Positions 38,901 to 40,228 of a stretch of DNA of 64,000 nucleotides are shown here, one piece after another (within the stretch, counting starts at the first letter, position 1; every line of letters begins with the position of its first letter). Below the pieces are notes generated by a model. The model had not been told where the DNA came from, made no database searches, and saw nothing but the letters and a program-made list of their open reading frames with translations. Position numbers and translations under genes: made by a program. The stretch covers positions 1-64,000 of the forward strand of contig JAJYMC010000034.1 in the NCBI GenBank assembly GCA_021787335.1, written 5' to 3'. Source of the stretch: Bacillota bacterium. GTDB lineage: Bacteria; Bacillota; Sulfobacillia; JAJYWN01; JAJZPE01.

Positions 38901-40228
38901 TCTATGACGGCCGGACCGGCGAGCCATTCGACAACAGGATCACCGTCGGGTTCGTATACATGCTCAAACTGGCCCACCTGGTCGACGACAAGATCCACGC
39001 CCGGAGCACCGGCCCATACTCCCTCGTCACCCAGCAGCCGCTGGGCGGCAAGGCCCAGTTCGGCGGGCAGCGCTTCGGCGAGATGGAGGTCTGGGCCCTG
39101 GAGGCCTACGGCGCCGCCTACACCCTCCAGGAGCTGCTGACGGTCAAGTCCGACGATGTGGTCGGCCGGGTCAAGACCTACGAGGCTATCGTCAAGGGCG
39201 AGAACGTCCCCGAGCCGGGCGTGCCCGAGTCGTTCAAGGTCCTCATCAAGGAACTCCAGAGCCTCGGCCTCGACGTCAAGGTCCTGACCGAGAACGCCGA
39301 GGAGATCGAGATCAGGGAGACCGACGACGATATCGCCGAGACCGCCCGCGACCTCGAGCTGAACATCGAGGGCGACGAGGACGCTCCCCGGCCGCCGATG
39401 AGGCCGCCCTTCGCGGCCGTGCCGCCCATCCAGGTGGAGGAGCCGGTCGAACCGGCCGAGGACGAGAGCGATCTCCACCTCGAGCATGACGGCGAGGACG
39501 CCGAAGGCCCGGCCCACCCGGCCGAGCTCGGCGAAGACGCCGATTTCCCCGAAGACGAAGCCCCGGGCGGGGCGCCGGTGACGCTGCCTCCTATCGAGGA
39601 GGCGTCCCGCAAGGGCGCTCGCGCGGCCCGGGCCCGCACCGAGTTCTCGGCCCCGCTGACCCCCGAACGGAAGTCCGATGAGGAGTCGGCGGCCACCCTC
39701 GAGACGGCCCGGGTGACTGCCGGCGCCGGCGCTGAGGAACCCGAGTCCCCGAAGCCGGTCGCGGCGAAGAAGCCCGGGAAGGCTCCGGCCATCAAGGTCG
39801 CTCCGGCCAAGGTGGCGGCCAAGGTCAAACCGGCCGCCAAGGCGGCCCCGGCGGGGAAGCTCAAGGTGGCCCCCAGGCCAGCCAAGGTCGCTCCCAAGCC
39901 GGCCCGCGCCGCCGCCCCGGCCGCCAAGGCCCAGAAGACGACCGCCAAGGTGACCGCGAAGGCTCCGGCCAAGAAGCCGGCGGCCGGCAAGGCCACCAAG
40001 AGTGCCTCTAAAGCGAAAGAACTGAAGACGAAGACGTCGGTCAAGGTCAAGGGAAAGCCCAAGACCGCGAGCAAGACGGTCAAGGTCCCGGCGAAGAAGG
40101 CCAAGGCGGCCACGCCGGAGGCCAAGAAGGCCACGCCCAAAGCCAAACCGGCTGCCCGGCCGGTCAAAGCGGCCGCCAAGCCGGCGGCCAAGGGCATGGC
40201 CGAGAAGACTGCACGCCCGAAGCGTTAG
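35963..40228 (+). CDS. rpoB: RNA polymerase beta subunit with a long charged C-terminal extension
   Basis: About 1421 residues; the Firmicutes core is near 1120-1200. The core is intact: rifampicin region ([32 protein letters not shown]), [22 protein letters not shown] and C-terminal clamp [20 protein letters not shown]. The usual end ([13 protein letters not shown]) comes near residue 1115. About 305 more residues follow in the same frame: first acidic and Pro-rich ([18 protein letters not shown]), then about 155 Lys/Ala/Pro-rich residues resembling histone H1 or mycobacterial HupB tails ([18 protein letters not shown]). ATG 35963 fits the family N-terminus; the frame is open from 35894. The 1463-codon antisense frame is a shadow. 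Confidence 0.97.

Follow-up and report, generated by a model that had tools for sequence, protein, structure and literature searches.

According to its list of open reading frames, the window, by which we mean the whole stretch of 64,000 nucleotides analysed here, carries a series of genes for ribosomal proteins, elongation factors and polymerase. The rpoB gene occupies positions 35963..40228 of the forward strand, from a likely ATG start to a TAG stop at 40226-40228, with the frame open up to that stop, and codes for a protein of 1421 residues; a TTG start at 35894 is also readable. The ATG start at 35963 is also open in a genome of the same genus (G001), and in a genome of the same family (G002) it is found with one change (GSK for GEK). 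A Pfam scan of the TTG-started frame gave six RpoB families above cut-off, and the identity of the product as RpoB is given by this domain set together with the presence of rpoC directly downstream. The rpoC gene (40287..43904, forward strand) begins 58 bases past the rpoB stop, behind AAAGGGG, and codes for a protein whose end is short and not lysine-rich (the RpoC ends of G001 and G002 were read as well).

In the TTG-started frame the last RpoB domain, PF04560, extends to residue 1132, which corresponds to residue 1109 counted from the ATG at 35963. The first-pass annotation of this DNA had placed the normal end of RpoB near residue 1115, with about 305 further codons from 39310, and both figures agree closely with our measurements, in which the conserved end of RpoB is residue 1117 counted from the ATG and the extension is made of 304 residues from nucleotide 39314. 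This extension is divided at tail residue 146 into two parts of opposite charge. The first is an acidic, proline-containing part with a net charge of -29 (39314..39751, forward strand), and the second is a Lys/Ala/Pro-rich part resembling linker histone H1 (39752..40225, forward strand), with 158 residues counted from the charge split and a net charge of +45. The start of the basic part had been proposed at about 39759, close to the 39752 obtained from the charge split, and the Lys/Ala/Pro repeat string quoted at the time is indeed present in the translated tail. The earlier description of an acidic first part followed by about 155 residues of mainly Lys, Ala and Pro is likewise borne out by these charges and by the composition of the last 156 residues, which are 31% A, 27% K and 13% P, against a lysine content of 4.9% in the RpoB core.

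Presence of the extension in related genomes

Among the 154 genomes of the class that were searched, only the window genome, G001 and G002 belong to the family. The tail is uninterrupted in these three separate assemblies, which represent two genera, and therefore it is neither a frameshift nor an error of a single genome. A frameshift or a stop near 39310 had been named beforehand as the finding that should overturn the tail; the frame is open in the assemblies of all three species. The family genomes are in many contigs (65, about 250 and about 200), which gives some room to the idea that a frameshift, a lost stop or an assembly error made the tail. Nevertheless, besides the uninterrupted frame in two genera, codon-position GC and dN/dS are typical of coding sequence and the rpoB-rpoC junction is similar in the relatives compared, so that the probability of an artefact is negligible and this reading was rejected. 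GC at third codon positions amounts to 0.919 for the core and 0.878 for the tail and, therefore, the coding pattern continues into the tail. The RpoB of this small uncultured Bacillota family bears a real charged tail of about 300 residues, first acidic and then linker-histone-like.

Composition and charge of the tail

The tails of the three family species differ in length (304, 335 and 342 residues) as well as in sequence. The net charges of their acidic and basic halves are -29/+45 in the window and -21/+42 and -33/+44 in G001 and G002 (in the order given), a constancy that is based on n = 3 species, and the net charge of the whole tail, counted from the conserved core end as in the class census below, is +12, +17 and +6 in the three members. 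The charge contrast between the halves of the window tail is 74, whereas 2000 shuffles of its own residues gave at most 40, and in each of the three species the contrast exceeds all 2000 shuffles. By charge-hydropathy analysis all three tails fall narrowly on the disordered side; an AlphaFold model had a mean pLDDT of 36.8, low even for the folded part of RpoB, and so is no guide to disorder. Comparison with the PDB showed that the best stretches of the best 60 of 69 matched sequences end at or before query residue 1153.

A lysine-rich half of this kind could bind polyphosphate, making the polymerase respond to stress or starvation. In the portions of the sources available to us, lysine-rich disordered stretches of E. 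coli proteins are described as binding polyphosphate (PMC12345225), and AlgP, a K/P/A protein, is located on polyphosphate granules (PMC9239181). The PASK motif is defined as 20 residues of which at least 75% are D/E/S/K, with a lysine among them (PMC12345225), and the three family tails each reach 12/20 D/E/S/K in their best window, which falls short of that definition and leaves polyphosphate binding very improbable as the explanation of the tail.

Two conserved motifs in a fast-evolving tail

Two motifs, chosen by eye through their conservation, are shared by the three species. M1 consists of 23 residues (39635..39703, forward strand), of which 20/23 in G001 and 15/23 in G002 are identical to the window, with dN/dS of 0.077 and 0.103, respectively. 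M2 consists of 26 residues (39989..40066, forward strand), with 21/26 identical in both genomes and dN/dS of 0.041 for G001 and 0.078 for G002. These values come from ungapped alignments and are similar to those of the RpoB core (0.095 against G001 and 0.088 against G002), and the acidic part as a whole has dN/dS of 0.556 and 0.81 against the same two genomes. The whole basic part gave 0.265 against G001 and 0.573 against G002, part of the latter alignment being misplaced; the global alignment misplaced the M2 of G002, giving 0.499 there. Estimates from 23-26 codons are noisy, and synonymous sites approach saturation, which M1 reaches outright between G001 and G002. A sliding-window comparison with G001 over 281 aligned tail codons showed low non-synonymous change at M1, at M2 and at a 12-residue block (39791..39826, forward strand) that, from this comparison and the alignment, is conserved within the genus only and absent from G002. 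On these codon comparisons, the estimated constraint on M1 and M2 is comparable to that on the RpoB core, and most of the remaining tail appears to drift.

Local alignment of the basic part gave a score of 425 for the window and G001, far above the shuffle maximum of 199. The score was 219 against a maximum of 216 for the window and G002, barely above chance, and 203 against 209 for G001 and G002, not above chance; the likeness to G002 beyond M2 is therefore mostly one of composition. In G002, M2 is located earlier in the tail, the end of which is a long stretch of repeated APAK, indicating that the flanks lengthen and shorten while M2 persists. A run of repeats at the end, a motif at a different position and acidic and flanking basic parts that drift fast are in line with the tail being mostly tolerated low-complexity growth, in which repeat slippage in a GC-rich genome extends a free, charged C-terminus that has little function beyond short motifs. 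The constraint on M1 and M2, comparable to that of the core, and the nearly constant net charge of the halves across three species are harder to reconcile with such growth, and lysine, which is coded by AAR, would not be expected from GC pressure alone. We regard tolerated growth as a possible but rather unlikely origin of the tail as a whole.

None of the top eight matches listed for M1 in other tails of the class scored above its shuffles, and the best M2 score in those tails was 33 (G028), against 30 for the best of 100 shuffles, with an alignment that is unconvincing by eye. Homology of either motif to tails elsewhere in the class is not supported by these scores and was rejected. A profile of M2 searched against a 398-genome sample of the phylum matched its own genome and, weakly (E 0.009), a frame of 677 residues. 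A scan of wider genome contigs with M2 confirmed nothing, a weak negative in that it also missed the G001 contig, which a later scan of these contigs returned.

RpoB tails in the class and beyond

PF04560 was found in 145/154 genomes of the class, and the census of RpoB tails covers 89 genomes from 46 families, with tail length counted from the conserved core end, about 14 residues more than in the count of 304 residues. The tail of G532 was cut by a contig end and that of G030 was missed by the pattern; those of G030, G025 and G073 were read apart from the census. Net acidic tails were observed in 86/89 genomes (-9 to -66, with lengths of 47-265), and the 3/89 that are net positive all belong to members of the window's family. 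Compact Lys/Arg clusters, defined as at least +6 in 20 residues beyond position 35, are present in the tails of 14/46 families, the window's included, and the tail of G030, from a 47th family, has a basic cluster by eye. A 60-residue stretch with at least 60% K+A+P and at least 20% K occurs in the three family members only, and in 0/86 of the other census tails. The three members also have an acidic stretch straight after the last RpoB domain (net -29, -21 and -33), and G003, a genome of the same order, has an acidic tail of 239 residues without a long basic part.

In families f7 and f41 (e.g. L133, L134, L135 and L178) the tail is composed of an acidic stretch, a basic cluster and then a conserved (D/E)LERxGRVRSIRDL-like motif, with an LFKxIxIP-like motif seen by eye ahead of the basic cluster. 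The RpoB tail of G025 (L200) is acidic with small Arg-rich patches.

A wider scan of contigs yielded 71 loci, of which only L048, which is G001 itself, ends basic, the other 70 being net acidic (L059 is cut short). In one locus from Eremiobacterota (L062, 671-1195) a basic stretch in the middle of the tail looks out of frame beside L055, which has the same isolate name, and could reflect either a pair of compensating frameshifts or a mistake in the assembly. In a phylum sample, PF04560 was found in 293/299 genomes, and 20 frames were chosen from the longer ones among the matches listed; all of these (20/20) are net acidic and 2/20 reach +6 in 20 residues. A literature search for lysine-rich RpoB tails returned none at the level of titles and abstracts, with most subscription journals outside its coverage.

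The first-pass annotation knew of no such tail on RpoB. That claim holds for the H1-like segment, which is found in no other RpoB tail that was read (89 in the census, 71 loci and 20 phylum frames), and has to be narrowed for charged tails in general, since these are the rule among relatives (86/89 net acidic) and compact Lys/Arg clusters occur in 14/46 families. The acidic RpoB tails of other Bacillota and of Eremiobacterota start at the same site past the last RpoB domain and are charged and fast-evolving, as is the window tail, in which the shorter charged tails of related bacteria seem to be taken to an extreme. Nonetheless, the window's family differs from the other 86 tails of the census, none of which is net positive or has an H1-like stretch, and among the RpoB tails read the long H1-like segment is restricted to this family. 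Short basic clusters already present in 14 of the 46 families would have been available to grow from, which is a further point in favour of tolerated growth.

A different explanation is that the tail is a platform for protein docking. M1 and M2 would bind partners, for instance the ribosome or a transcription factor, and the charged stretches would act as spacers and solubilisers, an arrangement that might strengthen the coupling of transcription to translation. The existence of two separate constrained linear motifs agrees with this explanation, as does the conserved motif of their own that f7 and f41 have past the basic cluster. Furthermore, a variable, lineage-specific insert of the beta subunit is described, in the part of the source consulted, as carrying a conserved partner-binding motif for PcrA (PMC8318588), which can be taken as a precedent for M1 and M2. 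However, neither motif was recognised in other tails of the class, and a net charge of +42 to +45 would be needless for a pure spacer. Docking alone is therefore considered an improbable account of the tail.

Other charged tails and delta in the same genomes

The RpoB tail is not the only Lys/Ala/Pro-rich extension in these genomes. Ribosomal protein L22, coded in the window at 51948-52598 (forward strand), extends 104 residues past its Pfam domain and is K/A/P-rich at the end, and the L22 of G001 (L207, 4572-5360) is likewise extended, with a K/A/P-rich end. A SecF-like protein, named by eye and coded on the reverse strand of another contig of the window genome (C21; L198, 1832-2881), has a K/A/P tail at its end, and a frame of 80 residues on contig C16 (L204, 1294-1533, forward strand) has KKPAAKKPAAKK-like repeats at its end and may code for a small H1-like protein. 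Two pattern searches gave a few K/A/P frames besides the RpoB tail, with some of their hits due to chance, and the basic tail, searched against the window genome, retrieved nothing but itself, probably because of composition filters. No K/A/P extension was seen in the principal sigma factor of the window genome. Tolerated growth gains from the tails of L22 and the SecF-like protein and, because these share the composition of the RpoB tail, a tolerated K/A/P habit remains a strong rival to a tail with a function of its own.

HARE-HTH genes, the delta type, are present in 95/154 genomes of the class, all three family members included, and a Pfam scan of the whole RpoB found no HARE-HTH domain. 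The delta-type protein of the window genome is short and its end has a net charge of -16, compared with -44 for the end of the delta-type protein of G003, and the gene is located elsewhere than rpoB. The idea that the tail substitutes for a lost delta was rejected, given the delta-type HARE-HTH genes with acidic ends in the three members.

Discussion

RpoB is among the most conserved of bacterial proteins, and lysine-rich tails are usually found on nucleoid and ribosomal proteins. Lysine-rich disordered tails are carried by mycobacterial HupB, actinobacterial topoisomerase I and principal sigma factors; these resemble the tail described here in being lysine-rich, but are not located on the beta subunit. 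Topoisomerase 1 and histone-like proteins are named among proteins with lysine-rich regions in a survey of low-complexity regions in prokaryotes (PMC6821194). The row for RNA polymerase activity in the table of that survey has D and E and not K, in a table that shows no K column, and the D and E of this row fit the acidic rule observed among RpoB tails (PMC6821194).

In composition, the basic part resembles the K/P/A-rich, H1-like C-terminal domains of AlgP and PhaF. The Lys/Ala/Pro segment has a similar length in AlgP, 154 residues against the 158 described here, and the AlgP region has 25 perfect KPAA repeats, against 4, 5 and 2 KPAA in the three RpoB tails, as far as the available part of the source goes (PMC9239181). 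In contrast to AlgP and PhaF, the segment is found here on a core subunit of the polymerase, behind an acidic part. The delta subunit of Bacillota, a disordered charged chain attached to the polymerase, with a net charge of -47 at its end in B. subtilis in the text seen of that study (PMC7749165), is comparable to the charged and probably disordered RpoB tail. However, delta is coded as a protein of its own and has a HARE-HTH domain, whereas the RpoB tail is net positive and has none.

Among the explanations weighed, we tentatively prefer, at somewhat less than an even chance, a tail that works as a disordered, charge-segregated tether, in which the basic half holds nucleic acid, the acidic half limits that binding and M1 and M2 dock. 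A functional tether is favoured over idle growth because of the nearly constant opposite charges and the two motifs. Under this reading, the extension would be a disordered tether on the beta subunit inside the cell, and its Lys/Ala/Pro half, with a net charge of +42 to +45, would bind polyanions without sequence preference. The C-terminus of the beta subunit lies near the N-terminus of beta-prime and the RNA exit side, and the likeliest targets of the basic half would be nearby DNA or nascent or ribosomal RNA. Such contacts could keep the polymerase at the nucleoid or close to it. With its net charge of -21 to -33, the acidic half may compete for the basic half or repel nucleic acid, keeping the binding loose, and M1 and M2 would dock onto the surfaces of partners.

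Both halves of such a tether have parallels in the portions of the literature consulted, since K/P/A-rich chains of AlgP bind DNA (PMC9239181) and an acidic disordered chain anchored on the polymerase, that of delta, acts on nucleic acids there (PMC7749165). The fast evolution of the tail outside the motifs counts against the tether reading, and K/A/P composition may be a general habit of the genome, as the L22 and SecF-like tails suggest, which would also count against it.

It is conceivable, though doubtful at present, that the polymerase core of this family has acquired a linker-histone-like, self-masked nucleic-acid tether, set by a conserved net charge and two docking motifs, that holds the polymerase at the nucleoid or in clusters; in role, this would be a bacterial counterpart of the domain that serves eukaryotic Pol II as a disordered scaffold. 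Our results also bring out a little-noticed feature of the class, namely acidic RpoB tails, some of them with a distal Lys/Arg cluster. In the window's family, a lysine tail on the polymerase core with nearly constant charge and conserved motifs would make the retention or clustering of polymerase driven by its tail directly testable.
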